This document shows positions 6,031 through 37,952 of a stretch of 41,286 bases of DNA, in pieces. The number at the start of each line of letters is the position of its first letter. Position 1 is the first letter of the stretch. Below the pieces are notes generated by a model. It saw nothing but the letters and a program-made list of their open reading frames with translations, had not been told where the DNA came from and did not search any database. The stretch is from a virus, in the IMG/VR virus record IMGVR_UViG_3300047462_000747, positions 1-41,286 of that record. One strand, 5' to 3'. Made by a program: the position numbers and the translations under genes.

Positions 6031-9000
6031 TTACTTCGCCGCTGCCAAAACAGCTTTTTTCTTGATACCGTCTAACGCGGAGTTCGATCTATCCAGTCTC
6101 GCCAGTAGCGCCTGGTAACCAGCGGAATGCAGCGTCACCAACGCCTGCAATTGCCTGACTTGTTCATTGAGTGCCGCAATCGTGGCACCGTCATTGCTGG
6201 CCGACCTGGAAGGCGCAGGCGCGTTAAAGTAGCGACGGATAGCCGCCATTGCTGGCGCATCGATGACGCCTTCGCCCTCGTGCAACTCGGCGCGATAGCC
6301 GTCGAATGGCACACGCTCCAAGCCGTCAGCATGCGAGCCGTCTAATTGCATCGTCGCATCCGCATCCTTGATGTTTGGCCGACGCGAAGGGCCAGGGCCA
6401 CCAGTCTTGTCTGGTGCCGAAACGTTACTAGCGCCGGTGTTCGCATGCGCCGCCGTGTTGGCCGCTTGCTGCGCAGCGATATTGATCGCCTGTTGCGCAA
6501 GTGCTGCCGCAACCGCTGCACCGATGCGCGTATCAAGCGTATTCAACGACGCCGTGATAGTCGCCAGGGCCGTAGGGATCGCCACCACAGCGGTGGCCTG
6601 ATCGGCCAGTTGCTTTTGCAGATCGGCTTGCCATTTCTTCGTGACGTCCTGTATCCCGGTTAGCTGGTCGTTCGCCTTGGTTTGCAAGTCGTTCAACTGC
6701 TTTTGCAAATCAGCCGACATCTGGAACCCGGCTTGCGTAATCGACGACACCGATGCATCGCCTCTGCTGCCTAGCGAACTCAATGCCTGTTGCACGCTCT
6801 GGAAAATAGCGTCGTACTGCGAACCGGACGCATAGTAAGAACGGCTTTGCGTCAGATAGTTGTTTGCATCGTTCTGCAACGCCTTGGCTGCGGTGGCGTC
6901 CCCATTCTGCGCTGCGGCCAGTGTGGTTTGATATTGCTGTTGCGATGCTGCCAGCTTCTGCTGATTCGACAGCGGGGACAGTTCGCTGGTCAGCAAAGAC
7001 TGCGCGTAAGTACCCAGGCTCTTGAACGTCTGCGACAACTGATTGGCGGCTTGCTGCGCTGCCTGGTATGCCTGCTGTTGCGCCTGCACCTGCGTCTGCA
7101 ATGCCGAATATTGGTAGTTGTAGGACGCCATGATTGCGTTCTGCAAATCCGAAGCGGCAGAGATGCGCGCAGTCAGCGACGAACTGGACGTGTCGTCGGC
7201 TATGCCGTCAAAGGCCGTTTGCGCTGTATTCACGTTGTCGTCAAGGTGCGCGCCCATGTCGTAGCCGATGCCGTTTTGCGCAACGGTCTGCAATGAGCCG
7301 GCAAGCGACTTTTGCAAAGTGCCAACCTGATCCATTTGCTGTGTAATCGCGCTCATCGCATCGGCTGCGCCGGTGCTGGCCGTCTGCAATGCGTTGGCAT
7401 GGTCAACGGCATCCGAAAATGCGCCGGACAGGTTTAGCAGTTTGCCGACCAGCGTTTGTCCCCCCGTCGTGCTTGTATCGATGCTGGCAACCAGTTGACG
7501 AAAGCCGTCCTTGGTCGCTGGCATCTTCAATCCCAGTGCAGTAAATTGCGCGTTCAAGTCTTTCATTTCAGCGGCTGATTGCTCGGCGGGTGAAAAGAAG
7601 TCTTTCAAGTAATCAGATAGGCCGCTACTCAATTGCGACGTACCGCCCGCGCCCTGGATCATGGCCGAAGTCAGGCTATTGCCGTTGAGCGCAACGTCGT
7701 TCATTGCCTTTTGAATCGACAACAGGTTTTGATACAACGTCACCATGTCAGCGGCAGAGCCAGTAAACGCTTGAATGATCTGGCCGATACCGCTCACGAC
7801 GGAATTGGTCACCAGGCGCAACTGCGGCGACAATCCTCCGGTGCGTGTGAATAGCTGTGTGGTTTCGGTCGTCACCGTTTGCGCGGCGACTATGGTTTGT
7901 CGTTCAATCTCTGTTGCGATGTCGCCTTGCTTGTTCACGATGTCGGTGAAGCTGACCGCAGTCAACCCTAAGCCTTGCATGGCGACGTTGGCTTGTTCAA
8001 CGCCGGTCGCGACACGAACAAGGGTCGTTAAATACCCTTCGCCGACTTGCGCAAACTGCGACAAGTTCGGCAACAGGTTTTGCGATATCAGCGAATTGAC
8101 AATCTTGTCTGTCGTCGCAGACAGTACGGAATTTAACGCCGTGGTCAACGCAGTGCCAGTCAATCCTTGCAACGATATGTTGGTCTGAATAGGGATATTG
8201 GCAACCGCTTTGCCGACATCGGTTGCACTGCTACCGATAGCGGTTGCAGCAGCCTGTAACGTCGATTCCAGCGACGAAAATATCAATGCGAACTGTTGCG
8301 ACGTTTGCGCAGAAGCTGCTTGCGTCACCTGCGAATCGCTATTGCTGCTCTCGTGGAACCAGCCGCCATCTACGTGCGTGTTGACGGTCGCGTAGTCGTC
8401 AACGCCCTGGCCCTGCGCGAGCGCCCCAACCGTCCCCGACAACTGCAAGCCGCTATCAATCACCGATTTGGAAGTGCTACCCCCGAAAAAATTACTGATG
8501 CGATTGGTCAGCCCGCCCAACAGATTATTGATCGCGCCACCAACGACATTCCCAAGCAAGCCATTGGTCAAGCTATCGACAGCAGTTGTCAGCGCCCGAC
8601 TGGTCGCAGAACTTGTCTTGCCGGTTTCAATGCCCATGTTGGTGCCTGATATGCCCTGCCCTTGCAAGATGTTGGACACGCCATTGATGCCGTTCTCAAT
8701 AGCTTGCAACGACGTCGCCATCTGACTGGTCAGCGGCAGCAACGCGCCGGAATTGTTGACAAGCAGTTTCATGCTGGCCGCGATGGAATCGCTTTGCTTC
8801 TGCGCATCGCCGTAGCTTGTGCCTGTGCCTTGCGCGGCCTGCTGTTGCGCGGCTGAATTTGGATCGGGCGCGCTATCACCGCCGGTCTTGACGACAAAGC
8901 CCAGCCCGACCATTACAGCGGCCATAGCGGCCATGCGCGCCCAGGCGGTATAGGGATCACCCATCGATTGATTTGCAACGCCAGCAGCAGCCGCAGAGTT

Positions 9001-11616
9001 ACCAATCAGCCAGTTAGCGGCGGCGATGATCGCGCTACCGCCTGTCGCTGCATCGGCCTTGGCCGCTTCGCCAACGACGACGGCGCTTGTCTCGGTATTG
9101 ACGGCAAACAGCTTCTTAGCCAATGATTCGACTGTCAATGCCATCTCGGCCACGCGATAAGCCTTCTCCACGTCTTCCATGAGCTTGTAGCCCCTGGAGT
9201 TCTTATCAAAGAAAGATGCGGCAGCAGCGGCGATGTCGCCGTACTGCTTGATCTGTGCTGCTGCCGAATTTTGATTCGCCTTATCCTGCGCCGCCTGGAT
9301 GACTGCCTGGTCACCATTGGCCGCATCCGTTTCGGCTTTTAGCTTGGTCTGAATTTCGTGCGTGGTGTTGCCGTAGTCAACGAAAGCCGATGTCATCTTG
9401 CCGATGGCCGTACCGATATTGCCGAATGATGTCGTCAACTCGGTTTCCATCTGCTTGACGGCTGTGATCGCATCCTTGAATTGTTGGGTGTCGATCTTCT
9501 TTTGTTCTTCGGCAGCATCCAGCGCAGCGCCTTGCTGCTTCAGTTCCATCAATTGCTTTTGCTTGTCGATTTTCTGCTGCGTCACCGCCAGCAATTGCGC
9601 ATCGATAGCAAGCGAATTGCCGTCCAGTGTGTTGCTGGCGATCATTTCGGTCAGGTATTGCGCATAGCTTTCGGACTCGGCCAGCTTTTCCGCTTCGATC
9701 TGCTTTAACGCCAGGTCGCGCTGCGACGCTGTCTGCCCAATCAGCGCATTGTGTTGCTTCTGCTTGGCAATGGCGTTATCCAACTGCGTGTTTTGCGTAG
9801 CGCCTACTTGTTCGATAGCCTTCGATATCGAATCGTAGATTGCTTCCTGGTCGATCAGGAATTTATTGACGCCGGAATTCTCGATTTCGGTGGCTTGCGC
9901 TTGCAGGCGCGTCAACTCGTTTTGATGCGCCTGGCGTTGCGTGGCGTCCAGGCCCGCGACCTGCAACATCGCTTGCTCGTATTGCTGTTTGGATGTGTTG
10001 ACTTCCAATGCATTGTTGGTCATCTCTGCATCGAATTGCGATTGCGTGATCTGGTGACGCTTCAATTGTGCGCTGAGGTCGTCGGCCTCGGTCTTGATTG
10101 CAATCTCGCGCAATGCTTCCGCTGCTTTTTGTTGCGCGTCGATCTGCGCTTGTGCGCTGTTGTCCGCATACTTGGCAACGATCTTGGCTTTTTCTTCGGC
10201 CAGGGCTTCTTCGCCAATACCCGCCTTTTGCGCAGCGGCGGTAACCGCCTCGATCTCATCGACCATCTGCTCATGGCGGCTGCGATTGGCCTGGACGATC
10301 TTGTCCCACGCCTGCTTGCCTTGTTCCTGGATTTGTTCGTGCTTCGTCTTTTCGGCTTGGAGCGCTGCCGCTTCGTCTTCAGCGCGTGCTTGTGCCTTCA
10401 GTTGCGCCATCTGCGCAAGGTCATCTTTCAAGCGTTGCATTTCTGCTTGCGCGGCGGTGCTTTGGGTGTCTCCCTTGTACGTAGTGTTAAGACGGTTCGT
10501 ACTATTGTCGATATCGGCCTGCAAGCGTGTGATTTGCTGGCCGACAGTGTCATCACCTGCCGCGCCTTTCATCGATTCCCATGCGCTCTTGGCCGCATTG
10601 GACAACTTGATCCAGGCACCTTCCAGCGTGCCGACCTTTTTTGCATGTCCTGCAAAGTCGTCATAGAACGCGGCCATCACAACGCGGATAGCTTCGGACT
10701 CGTTGCCTTGCGCAACCAGTTGGCGCACGTAGTCCATGTCACTAGCAGACATCGCGTGATACTGCTTGTTGTGTTCTTCGGCCCAGGCGACGACGTTGTC
10801 GCTCATCTTGACGAATTCTTTAACGACTGCGTCCGACGATGTGCCGGTAGCCTGGGCGAACGCAACGGCGGTCTTGCCGGTGGCTTCAAAGGTGTCAGAA
10901 GTAAAGCGGCCACTGGCGGCAAGCCCTGTCAAAATCTCGCGTGCCTTCCCGGCACCAGCATTGTCGATATTGCCCATCGACTGCGCCATCGTATTGATCT
11001 TGTCTTCGGTCAGGCCCGCCATGTTGCCAGTCAGGTCAAGGGCTTGCCGGATGGCTTCTTGCTCTTGCGAGGCTTCATAGGCAGCAACGCCGAACGCAGC
11101 AACTGCTGCAACGATTGCCATGATGCCCAGGCCGACCGGTGTAAAAAGCGCGGGCAGCAATCCCATGCGACTTGCAAGCACCGTTGCGCTGCCTGCCATC
11201 TGATCAAAACTGCCCGACGCGAATTCGCGGCCCAACACCATGACTTCGCGTGTTGTGCCAGCGGTCGCAATGCTCAAGCCGTTTTGCGCAGCAGTGGCCG
11301 CCGCGATCTGCGCAATCATCGGCGCGGCTTCTTCGGTTAAGCCTAACTCTGCGGCGCGCATTTCCAGCAACTGCGCTTTGTTCAAGCCGATGGCGGCGGC
11401 TTGCTCGCGCAAGCTGTCCAGGTAGGCAAGCTGGCCGACCGTCAATTGCGCGGTGGCATTGCTCAAATCCTTTTGCGCTGCCGCCATTGACGCACCGACG
11501 TTCTGGGCCGACGCGCCCATCCTGGTAGTGGCTTCGGTAACCTGGTCGATACCGTCAACAGCATCCTTGTTGCCGTCAACGCTGATCTTGATACCTAATT
11601 CCACCACTTGCGCCAT
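6031..11616 (-). CDS. Tail tape measure protein
   Basis: At 1861 aa this is by far the largest gene. Residues about 70-350 match the pattern of prophage tail-length tape measure proteins, with a hydrophobic segment at about 155-185. Long Gln/Ala/Lys-rich coiled coils follow (about 350-530, 540-770, 1440-1640), with a second hydrophobic patch near 860-920. The C-terminus has GPSRRPNIKDAD and a basic end (KKKAVLAAAK). Tape measures fix tail length at roughly 0.15 nm per residue, which predicts a tail near 280 nm. GAGGA lies 7 nt upstream of the ATG, and the gene follows the chaperone frames as in siphophages. Confidence 0.93.
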   Translation of the reverse strand: MAQVVELGIKISVDGNKDAVDGIDQVTEATTRMGASAQNVGASMAAAQKDLSNATAQLTVGQLAYLDSLREQAAAIGLNKAQLLEMRAAELGLTEEAAPMIAQIAAATAAQNGLSIATAGTTREVMVLGREFASGSFDQMAGSATVLASRMGLLPALFTPVGLGIMAIVAAVAAFGVAAYEASQEQEAIRQALDLTGNMAGLTEDKINTMAQSMGNIDNAGAGKAREILTGLAASGRFTSDTFEATGKTAVAFAQATGTSSDAVVKEFVKMSDNVVAWAEEHNKQYHAMSASDMDYVRQLVAQGNESEAIRVVMAAFYDDFAGHAKKVGTLEGAWIKLSNAAKSAWESMKGAAGDDTVGQQITRLQADIDNSTNRLNTTYKGDTQSTAAQAEMQRLKDDLAQMAQLKAQARAEDEAAALQAEKTKHEQIQEQGKQAWDKIVQANRSRHEQMVDEIEAVTAAAQKAGIGEEALAEEKAKIVAKYADNSAQAQIDAQQKAAEALREIAIKTEADDLSAQLKRHQITQSQFDAEMTNNALEVNTSKQQYEQAMLQVAGLDATQRQAHQNELTRLQAQATEIENSGVNKFLIDQEAIYDSISKAIEQVGATQNTQLDNAIAKQKQHNALIGQTASQRDLALKQIEAEKLAESESYAQYLTEMIASNTLDGNSLAIDAQLLAVTQQKIDKQKQLMELKQQGAALDAAEEQKKIDTQQFKDAITAVKQMETELTTSFGNIGTAIGKMTSAFVDYGNTTHEIQTKLKAETDAANGDQAVIQAAQDKANQNSAAAQIKQYGDIAAAAASFFDKNSRGYKLMEDVEKAYRVAEMALTVESLAKKLFAVNTETSAVVVGEAAKADAATGGSAIIAAANWLIGNSAAAAGVANQSMGDPYTAWARMAAMAAVMVGLGFVVKTGGDSAPDPNSAAQQQAAQGTGTSYGDAQKQSDSIAASMKLLVNNSGALLPLTSQMATSLQAIENGINGVSNILQGQGISGTNMGIETGKTSSATSRALTTAVDSLTNGLLGNVVGGAINNLLGGLTNRISNFFGGSTSKSVIDSGLQLSGTVGALAQGQGVDDYATVNTHVDGGWFHESSNSDSQVTQAASAQTSQQFALIFSSLESTLQAAATAIGSSATDVGKAVANIPIQTNISLQGLTGTALTTALNSVLSATTDKIVNSLISQNLLPNLSQFAQVGEGYLTTLVRVATGVEQANVAMQGLGLTAVSFTDIVNKQGDIATEIERQTIVAAQTVTTETTQLFTRTGGLSPQLRLVTNSVVSGIGQIIQAFTGSAADMVTLYQNLLSIQKAMNDVALNGNSLTSAMIQGAGGTSQLSSGLSDYLKDFFSPAEQSAAEMKDLNAQFTALGLKMPATKDGFRQLVASIDTSTTGGQTLVGKLLNLSGAFSDAVDHANALQTASTGAADAMSAITQQMDQVGTLQKSLAGSLQTVAQNGIGYDMGAHLDDNVNTAQTAFDGIADDTSSSSLTARISAASDLQNAIMASYNYQYSALQTQVQAQQQAYQAAQQAANQLSQTFKSLGTYAQSLLTSELSPLSNQQKLAASQQQYQTTLAAAQNGDATAAKALQNDANNYLTQSRSYYASGSQYDAIFQSVQQALSSLGSRGDASVSSITQAGFQMSADLQKQLNDLQTKANDQLTGIQDVTKKWQADLQKQLADQATAVVAIPTALATITASLNTLDTRIGAAVAAALAQQAINIAAQQAANTAAHANTGASNVSAPDKTGGPGPSRRPNIKDADATMQLDGSHADGLERVPFDGYRAELHEGEGVIDAPAMAAIRRYFNAPAPSRSASNDGATIAALNEQVRQLQALVTLHSAGYQALLARLDRSNSALDGIKKKAVLAAAK

Positions 11617-11626
11617 GTCTCTATCC

Positions 11627-12040
11627 TCATTGTTGCTGCTGTTTGTCTAACTGTTCCTGCCACTGCTTGCGAATCACTTCCAGGGCCGCCGCTTCCATGA
11701 TCCGAATTTCGTTAAAAATTTCCGGCCACTTCCTTCGCCTGACGTCCGGCCTGTAGCGTTCAACGATGGGTAACGCCGCATACTTGATGTTTGTTCGCAC
11801 GCCGTCTGCATTGACGTCCCATTGCGTTGACAGCGCCAGGAATACTTCCAGCGTCGTGCGATTGTCGCGATGTACTTCGTAGCATTCGCGTTCCGTCGTG
11901 GCTTCGACCGGCGCATCGGCAATTTCATCTTCCAGGCCAAAGGCGCGCATGTCTTCGGCCAATTCGTCGCTGATGTGGGCGTTGTCGAATCCGTCATTGC
12001 TGCGTCCGCCGCCCGCCCACCAAGCGGCGGCCCCTTCTAG
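11627..12040 (-). CDS. Tail assembly chaperone, downstream (T-like) part, reached by -1 frameshift
   Basis: This frame lacks its own good start and is in the -1 frame relative to the chaperone upstream. It is entered at the A AAA AAC site at 12040-12046. Translation after the slip reads L-E-G-A-A-A-W-W-A-G-G-G and runs 137 residues to TGA at 11627-11629, giving a 250-aa fusion. The phrases EVFLALSTQW and IKYAALP match the DUF1799 family, the second half of tail chaperones in this phage type. In lambda the G and GT products coat the tape measure during tail assembly. A TTG at 11962 could in principle start a shorter 111-aa form. Confidence 0.85.
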   Translation of the reverse strand, partial: LEGAAAWWAGGGRSNDGFDNAHISDELAEDMRAFGLEDEIADAPVEATTERECYEVHRDNRTTLEVFLALSTQWDVNADGVRTNIKYAALPIVERYRPDVRRRKWPEIFNEIRIMEAAALEVIRKQWQEQLDKQQQQ

Positions 12041-12046
12041 TTTTTT
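12005..12046 (-). promoter_or_regulatory. Programmed -1 frameshift site with downstream stem-loop
   Basis: On the minus strand the codons GCA AAA AAC TAG contain the canonical heptamer A AAA AAC (12046 to 12040) in the correct phase. After a 9-nt spacer, CCGCCGC can pair with GCGGCGG in an all-GC stem. The zero-frame stop follows at once (12037-12039), and the -1 frame is open into the DUF1799-type sequence. This matches the frameshift arrangement of tail assembly chaperone genes. Confidence 0.88.
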
Positions 12047-12378
12047 GCCTTGGCCCCGGAGATGGAAGCAAAGAAGGTTTTAACGATGGTCATTCGCGTC
12101 GGGAAAACGTTCAACACGGCGGCGAGATTGGCTTCGTTAAATTCCAGCAGAGTGCCGTTCTCGTCCTGGACGTCCTTCCAGCCGACCAACACTTCATCAA
12201 TGAGACCTTTATCGGTTAATGTCTTCGCGCCCAAGCGATCAGTAACGTCATCCAGTTCTTCCTGCGACAACCGCTTGAAAGTCGCGGTGAAGGCTTTTTG
12301 CTCGGTTTTGCCGTTATCGCCTGGTACATCGACCTTGACCGGCGTTGTGTATGTTGGGGTGGTTGAAATTTTGAACAT
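12037..12378 (-). CDS. Tail assembly chaperone, upstream (G-like) part
   Basis: This 113-aa protein is encoded between the tail tube gene and the tape measure, the fixed position of the G-type chaperone in long-tailed phages. The sequence (FTATFKRLSQEELDDVTDRL, then ...FNEANLAAVLNVFPTRMTI) fits the phage tail assembly chaperone pattern: a beta-rich start and an acidic helical middle. It ends AAA AAC TAG at a slippery site, so most ribosomes make this short form and a fraction continue into the next frame. Both products are expected to act in the cytoplasm during tail assembly and to be absent from the mature virion. Confidence 0.85.
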   Translation of the reverse strand: MFKISTTPTYTTPVKVDVPGDNGKTEQKAFTATFKRLSQEELDDVTDRLGAKTLTDKGLIDEVLVGWKDVQDENGTLLEFNEANLAAVLNVFPTRMTIVKTFFASISGAKAKN

Positions 12379-12404: not shown

Positions 12405-13349
12405 TTAGATATTGATCATGGTGATTTCATCGTTACCGACGACAGGCGTCGGCTCCAGCGTCAGCTTGTAGGCCAGCATGTCATCGATCTTGTCGTAGTT
12501 CGCATCGAGAACACGGCACAGCATGTTGAGCTGGATTTTCTTTCCTGCTACGCTGCCGTGCGTGGTCGTAACCGGCACCACCACGCCGGAACTTGCGAGC
12601 GTGAACGGATTGAATGTGCCGAGGTCTGTCGCCAGCACTGTCGCCGTGGCCTGTGGCGCGCGATCAGAGATAACGATTTCCTTTTGCGGCCCAGGCAAAT
12701 CCATGCGGCTGACCTTGTTCCCGAAAGACCAATCAAGCTGTGACAGCGGCAATGCGACGCCGTTAATCGACAGCGGCAAGGTATTGGCGCTATTCGATCC
12801 TTCTTCAATCGGCCAGCCGGTACGCGTGACCGCAGGCGCGGCCTGGGGCGCTGGCACCACATATTGAAAATCGAAGGAGAAACTAAGCGTCGGTGTTCCT
12901 TTTGCGGCAATCTTGCCTTTCACTTCGCCCCGGCCACCCAGCAATGCATGCTGTGCGCCATCGATATTGATGTACGCGCAGACGCTGCCGAAATTGGAGC
13001 TAACCAGGTTATAGGCCGCCGACGTGGTGGCGGTGAGGGTTTCAGCCGTGCCGCATGCCAGCAGCAGCGGTGCCCACTTTGGCGACGTGCCAGCCGTGCC
13101 GGAACCGGCCAGCGCAACGTCAAACGTCAGCTTGGCCCAGGACGTCACGATAATGTTGCCGCTGTTGCCCAGGTAAGGCAGATCGATATTGCGTGCAACC
13201 TTGTCGTTATCCATCGGCGTCAACACCACGTTGCGCGCCTCGATCCAGTTGGCCGCGCCGGTTGGGATCGCATCGACGCCATAGGTCGCTTCCGGTTTGA
13301 TCAAGACGGCCTTGTTGCGCCAGCGGCGCGGTGTAATCAGGTTGGGCAT
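12405..13349 (-). CDS. Major tail tube protein
   Basis: This 314-aa protein starts MPNLITPRRWRNKAVLIKPE, followed by TYGVDAIPTGAANWIEARN, the typical opening of siphophage tail tube subunits of the Mu-like group. The body is beta-rich and low in Cys and ends in TLEPTPVVGNDEITMINI. It would polymerise as stacked rings around the tape measure. The start ATG overlaps the previous gene by 13 bp and has AAGGGG about 7 nt upstream. The gene lies between the tail terminator and the frameshifted chaperone, as expected. The absence of a sheath gene next to it is evidence for a non-contractile tail. Confidence 0.85.
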   Translation of the reverse strand: MPNLITPRRWRNKAVLIKPEATYGVDAIPTGAANWIEARNVVLTPMDNDKVARNIDLPYLGNSGNIIVTSWAKLTFDVALAGSGTAGTSPKWAPLLLACGTAETLTATTSAAYNLVSSNFGSVCAYINIDGAQHALLGGRGEVKGKIAAKGTPTLSFSFDFQYVVPAPQAAPAVTRTGWPIEEGSNSANTLPLSINGVALPLSQLDWSFGNKVSRMDLPGPQKEIVISDRAPQATATVLATDLGTFNPFTLASSGVVVPVTTTHGSVAGKKIQLNMLCRVLDANYDKIDDMLAYKLTLEPTPVVGNDEITMINI

Positions 13350-37667: not shown

Positions 37668-37952
37668 TTAAGGAGTGGGCTGAAAGAATTTCCGATTTAA
37701 GGACGGCGTAAAGTTACGCTTTTCGTAACGGCTGGGCCAGATTGTCTCGGGTGCAAGGTTTAACGCACTTGCGATGATGCCTTCGGCCTTCAGGTAAGGC
37801 ACATCTAAAGCGGTTTTAAGTGTTCCGGCGCTTAGTCCATTTTGGCGTGACAATTCGCGTAACGACCAGCCCGCTTTGTGCAGCGCTGCAACAATATCCG
37901 CTCTATGCCAATCCGTTGGGGCGGTTTTTTTTGGGGTGTTTTCTACGCTCAT
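37668..37952 (-). CDS. Ner-like DNA-binding protein
   Basis: This 94-aa protein is of the Ner/Nlp family: TDWHRADIVAALHKAGWSLR, RELSRQNGLSAGTLKTALD and PYLKAEGIIASALNLAPETI followed by WPSRY. In Mu, Ner dampens both repressor and early transcription after the lytic switch. It is the first gene of the early operon, 33 bp downstream of the -10 box of the early promoter. AAGG lies about 10 nt before the ATG. Confidence 0.93.
   Translation of the reverse strand: MSVENTPKKTAPTDWHRADIVAALHKAGWSLRELSRQNGLSAGTLKTALDVPYLKAEGIIASALNLAPETIWPSRYEKRNFTPSLNRKFFQPTP

Follow-up and report, generated by a model that had tools for sequence, protein, structure and literature searches.

A putative -1 ribosomal frameshift joining two tail assembly chaperone frames in a Mu-like phage, with the slippery heptamer directly against the stop codon

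Frameshifts in the genes of tail assembly chaperones, of which Xu, Hendrix and Duda reportedly described a wider set in 2004 (as told in papers that cite them), are the closest described counterparts of the locus considered here, a pair of frames on the minus strand at positions 11,627 to 12,378 of virus record IMGVR_UViG_3300047462_000747 (41,286 nucleotides, analysed over its whole length and called the window below). Judged from its sequence, the site belongs to the already known lambda G/GT type of tail assembly chaperone frameshift, with which it shares the gene order, an XXXYYYZ heptamer in phase close to where the first gene ends, the -1 extension, and the placement immediately ahead of the tape measure gene. 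A -1 programmed ribosomal frameshift very probably yields two tail assembly chaperones from one start at this locus, a prediction that is based on the heptamer, its phase, the open -1 frame, the protein families, the gene order, and the conservation in relatives.

For lambda, a review gives a 30:1 ratio and the roles of gpG and gpGT (PMC5009743). Frameshifting of about 7% is on record for one cluster of tail assembly chaperones (PMC3711429), and the heptamers AAAAAAC and GGGAAAC are given for phiCbK and Colossus, respectively (PMC3556154). Two further systems come near. The gp12/gp13 pair of Acinetobacter phage vB_AbaS_Loki is described with the same architecture and with the heptamer beside the stop (PMC5313236); by that description, on which the comparison is made, Loki is a lytic siphovirus, whereas the window is a Mu-like transposable phage. 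In Burkholderia phage KL1, gp18/gp19 carry GGGAAAC directly before a TGA stop together with a predicted downstream stem-loop, but an additional gene separates the fusion from the tape measure gene, and the first three bases of the heptamer differ from those of the window (PMC3483164). Moreover, first-half homologues with AAAAAAC or GGGAAAC abutting the stop are found in Rhodobacter phage RC1, Rhodovulum phage RS1, Synechococcus phages S-CBS1, S-CBS3, and S-LBS1, and Cronobacter phage CS01 (loci L005-L010), which differ from the window in that they share only about 27-33% identity with its first half and are annotated as two genes.

Conversely, the window departs from lambda in the distance between heptamer and stop, since GGGAAAG lies 15 nucleotides before the stop of lambda G, whereas AAAAAAC abuts the stop in the window. 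Under the same in-phase test, TTTTTTG lies 18 nucleotides before the stop of P2 E, and GGGAAAA, a candidate picked in phase by this analysis and not an annotated site, lies 21 nucleotides before the stop of TM4 gp15, so that the contrast in spacing is one with lambda, P2, and TM4 only; in HK97, the pattern used gave no in-phase XXXYYYZ match within 100 nucleotides of the stop. The elements of the locus are as follows.

12037 to 12378, minus strand: zero-frame tail assembly chaperone (G-like), 113 amino acids, ATG start, TAG stop; Phage_TAC_4, phrog_313, phrog_569
12040 to 12046, minus strand: slippery heptamer A_AAA_AAC, in phase, its final base abutting the stop
12037 to 12039, minus strand: zero-frame stop TAG, 0 nucleotides past the heptamer
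11627 to 12040, minus strand: -1 frame extension (T-like), 137 amino acids counted from the slip site, DUF1799, stop included

The zero-frame open reading frame (ORF; 12378-12037) ends in the codons GCA AAA AAC TAG, and the heptamer (12046-12040) has the phase required for tandem -1 slippage. Read from the slip site, the -1 frame continues uninterrupted through 137 codons to a stop at 11629-11627, and the fusion is 250 amino acids long (113 + 137). The first-pass annotation of this DNA, made from the letters alone, had claimed as much: the placement and phase of A AAA AAC directly before the zero-frame stop, the opening of the -1 frame into a DUF1799-type protein, and the length of the fusion all proved correct on recalculation. 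Besides the site itself, its interval of 12005-12378 takes in only the first gene and the stem, and it omits the -1 part that reaches 11627. The motif AAAAAAC is rarer in the window than expected (two copies, where dinucleotide shuffles average 8.4), and one of the two copies is the one standing exactly in phase against the zero-frame stop. The other copy lies at 37930-37924 on the minus strand, in the early part of an HTH_35 (Ner-like) ORF (37668-37952), and a reading by hand against that ORF places it out of the slippery phase.

Conservation was surveyed in viral contigs and in phage records. A profile of the DUF1799 half was scanned against viral contigs, and the best 80 of 189 confirmed relatives were taken as loci; the first half matched 18 phage records, nine of which were fetched (the other nine being partly duplicates of these), and an independent protein search with the second half gave 22 phage records, nine of which were fetched. 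Among the viral loci, the heptamer directly touches the stop in 78 of the 79 that are informative (L035 starts inside the second half and is uninformative). In 75 of the 80, the zero frame ahead of a zero-spacing heptamer exceeds 60 codons, and three further loci (L015, L075, L082), counted in the 78, have the zero spacing and lie too near a contig end for that filter. These 78 loci carry GGGAAAC (44) or AAAAAAC (34), followed by TGA (59), TAA (13), or TAG (6). They are partly non-independent, as L014 and L015 match the window without a difference over 500 nucleotides (76 of 77 have zero spacing without these two), and in the largest cluster, of 34 members, many are likewise not independent. 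All nine phage records reached through the first half (one of which, L011, ends before the second half is reached) have AAAAAAC or GGGAAAC against the zero-frame stop, as do eight of the nine reached through the second half. When 89 loci were grouped at 50% identity, each of the 16 resulting clusters contained at least one zero-spacing member.

The two exceptions to zero spacing still carry a heptamer, 18 and 3 nucleotides before the stop, and the heptamer, whose lack of conservation had been named beforehand, together with absence of the fusion peptide, as what would refute a frameshift, is thus kept in every informative relative examined. Specifically, L078 (positions 2468-2494; IMGVR_UViG_3300033816_000155), the sole informative viral locus without zero spacing, has AAAAAAG 18 nucleotides before the stop, where GGGAAAC or AAAAAAC stands at the stop in its close relatives; in Pseudomonas phage PseuP_222 (L099, positions 963-974), a single sense codon (TCC) separates GGGAAAC from the TAA stop.

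The composition of the heptamers also bears on whether the slip would belong to the ribosome or to the polymerase. A run of six A residues falls within the lengths for which slippage by the polymerase is discussed, and transcriptional slippage on such a run, present in 34 of the 78 zero-spacing viral loci, could in principle yield mixed products; the other 44 loci have GGGAAAC, which keeps the tandem-slip pattern and not the homopolymer, and this explanation is extremely improbable.

The protein families point in the same direction as the conserved site. The zero-frame product matches Pfam PF08748 Phage_TAC_4 over residues 2-113 (29 bits, gathering cut-off 21.1) as well as phrog_313 (Tail assembly chaperone) and phrog_569, and the -1 frame matches Pfam PF08809 DUF1799 over residues 54-123 of a 138-residue frame (33.3 bits, gathering cut-off 26) as well as phrog_680 and phrog_17368. 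The last of these matches both halves in order, at 10-107 and then at 138-211 of its 213 positions. The families, the position upstream of the tape measure gene, and the kept heptamer together fit a tail assembly chaperone frameshifted by -1. Two neighbouring genes define that position.

6031 to 11616, minus strand: tape measure protein gene, directly downstream (Pfam TMP_2 2.1e-31, phrog_24 1.8e-61)
12405 to 13349, minus strand: gene directly upstream (phrog_290 'minor tail protein' 1.7e-15)

The upstream gene, which has no Pfam match at 0.1, is a probable tail tube protein gene, judged by its position, and the two chaperone frames sit between it and the tape measure gene as in the lambda G/GT type; the tape measure protein is the expected client of the chaperone. 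Elsewhere in the window, the portal, protease, head protein gpT, F protein, and transposase genes are Mu-like, and it is on these that the assignment to the Mu-like transposable phages is founded, while the tape measure and chaperone genes are of a kind known from long-tailed siphoviruses.

We infer the occurrence and the rate of slippage, for which the following course is proposed. Most ribosomes would terminate at TAG and release the 113-residue protein, while in a minority the Lys transfer RNA (tRNA) on AAA and the Asn-tRNA on AAC would slip one base back onto AAA AAA, aided by the stem 9 nucleotides downstream, and translation would resume with CTA (Leu) in the DUF1799 frame to give the 250-residue fusion. 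Tandem slippage of the two tRNAs sets in only after AAC has been read as Asn, and because of this the main junction should be ...A-K-N-L-E-G..., with the tryptic peptide NLEGAAAWWAGGGR. The junction first suggested, K-K-L-E-G (tryptic LEGAAAWWAGGGR), would arise only if the slip preceded the decoding of AAC, and K-N-L-E-G replaces it as the main form in keeping with the established tandem-slip mechanism. In systems of the lambda G/GT type, both products are made at a fixed ratio, with the short one in excess. If the two products act here as gpG and gpGT do in lambda, the short form would coat the tape measure protein and the fusion would recruit the tail tube subunit.

The stem that may assist the slip forms the next element of the locus.

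12006 to 12030, minus strand: stem of 10 base pairs with a 5-nucleotide loop (12030-12021 paired with 12015-12006), beginning 9 nucleotides past the heptamer

Its pairs are seven G-C, then two G-U, then one G-C (eight G-C and two G-U). The stem and its distance had been described correctly, but the description as GC-only holds for the basal seven pairs only. The surrounding sequence is GC-rich, and the stem stands out from shuffles of it only moderately, with z scores of -1.14 over 80 nucleotides (24 of 200 shuffles as good), -1.56 over 55 nucleotides (14 of 200 as good), and -2.15 over 50 nucleotides; in L016, the nearest distinct relative, the fold is more stable against shuffles (z -2.53, equalled by 2 of 200). 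When 50-nucleotide stretches at 35 offsets were folded in representatives of the 16 clusters, the mean energy was lowest (-17.8 kcal/mol) for the stretch that begins at the stop; there the mean z is -1.59, with 10 of 16 representatives below -1 and a Wilcoxon p of 0.005, as compared with mean z values of 0.33, -0.59, -0.43, and -0.10 at offsets of -100, -50, +50, and +100 nucleotides. In frameshifts of the lambda G/GT type a downstream stimulatory structure is common but not obligatory, and the stem is a likely, though dispensable, candidate for this part, which is proposed from these folding energies.

Several observations weigh against the frameshift reading. Six of the 16 representatives, that of L017 among them, fold no better than z -1, and the stretch 50 nucleotides upstream is itself slightly structured (p 0.047 at the mean z given above). 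Covariation in the stem is poor, with a two-sided change in 1 of 15 pairs in an alignment fold of 14 sequences. The 26 codons between the slip site and the TTG at 11962 show 2 synonymous and 11 non-synonymous differences between the window and L016, by themselves no sign of purifying selection. Lastly, A_AAA_AAC is weaker than A_AAA_AAG in E. coli, according to PMC5009743. Two lines of support were dropped in consequence: covariation, which at 1 of 15 pairs gives nothing beyond the folding energy, and selection upstream of the TTG, for which the differences are too few and mostly non-synonymous.

That TTG also raises the question of whether the second half starts on its own. It is the only start that a mechanical ORF list places in the -1 frame, 26 codons in, and both ORF lists and public annotation show two genes, as would be the case if the DUF1799 protein began there by translational coupling or at an internal ribosome site and the heptamer were incidental. 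However, the stretch from the slip site to the TTG aligns without gaps between the window and L016, and L016 has CTG in place of the TTG. Across 87 zero-spacing loci, which are partly redundant, the first start within the first 40 codons of the -1 frame is TTG in 31, GTG in 20, ATG in 13, and absent in 23, and only 12 of the 87 have a Shine-Dalgarno-like 4-mer ahead of it, whereas the heptamer is retained across the 16 clusters. Independent initiation of the second half is thus poorly supported, and two separate genes with an incidental heptamer are very improbable.

With a -1 frameshift as the preferred explanation, 11627-11962 should be annotated as the tail of the 250-residue fusion and not as a separate gene started at TTG. 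The first-pass annotation had foreseen that pipelines would list two short genes, the second with a wrong TTG start; the mechanical list does place the start at TTG 11962, and in 17 of 17 phage records with both halves in view the halves are not given as a joined coding sequence, so that the same annotation mistake is present in all of these records.

Adjacency of heptamer and stop is in print for single phages (Loki, KL1), and a statement of it as a family rule was not found in the open literature, most subscription papers lying outside it. Zero spacing looks like a feature of the Phage_TAC_4/DUF1799 family, on the small comparison with lambda, P2, and TM4, and its rigidity is the only mildly new point of this analysis. 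The near-fixed spacing gives pipelines a simple rule for calling the fusion automatically, and it poses the testable question of termination competing with slippage. It is conceivable, if unlikely, that in this family the zero-frame stop itself belongs to the frameshift signal and holds the spacing at zero: slow decoding of the stop right after AAC would give the ribosome a second chance to slip, and the efficiency of termination would then tune the ratio of the two chaperones. The absence of adjacency in L078, whose AAAAAAG is the stronger site in E. coli, is as this idea predicts, and the 3-nucleotide spacing of GGGAAAC in L099 is slightly against it.

Lastly, the names attached to these proteins in public resources are uneven. 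The PHROGs matched by the two chaperone halves include 569, 680, and 17368, all three bearing the label 'tail length tape measure protein', which several RefSeq phage records also give to chaperone halves. In Synechococcus phage S-LBS1, the chaperone homologue (L009, positions 1495-1875) carries the annotation ABC-type cobalamin/siderophore transporter ATPase, and two ORFs, one short and one antisense, take the place of its second half.
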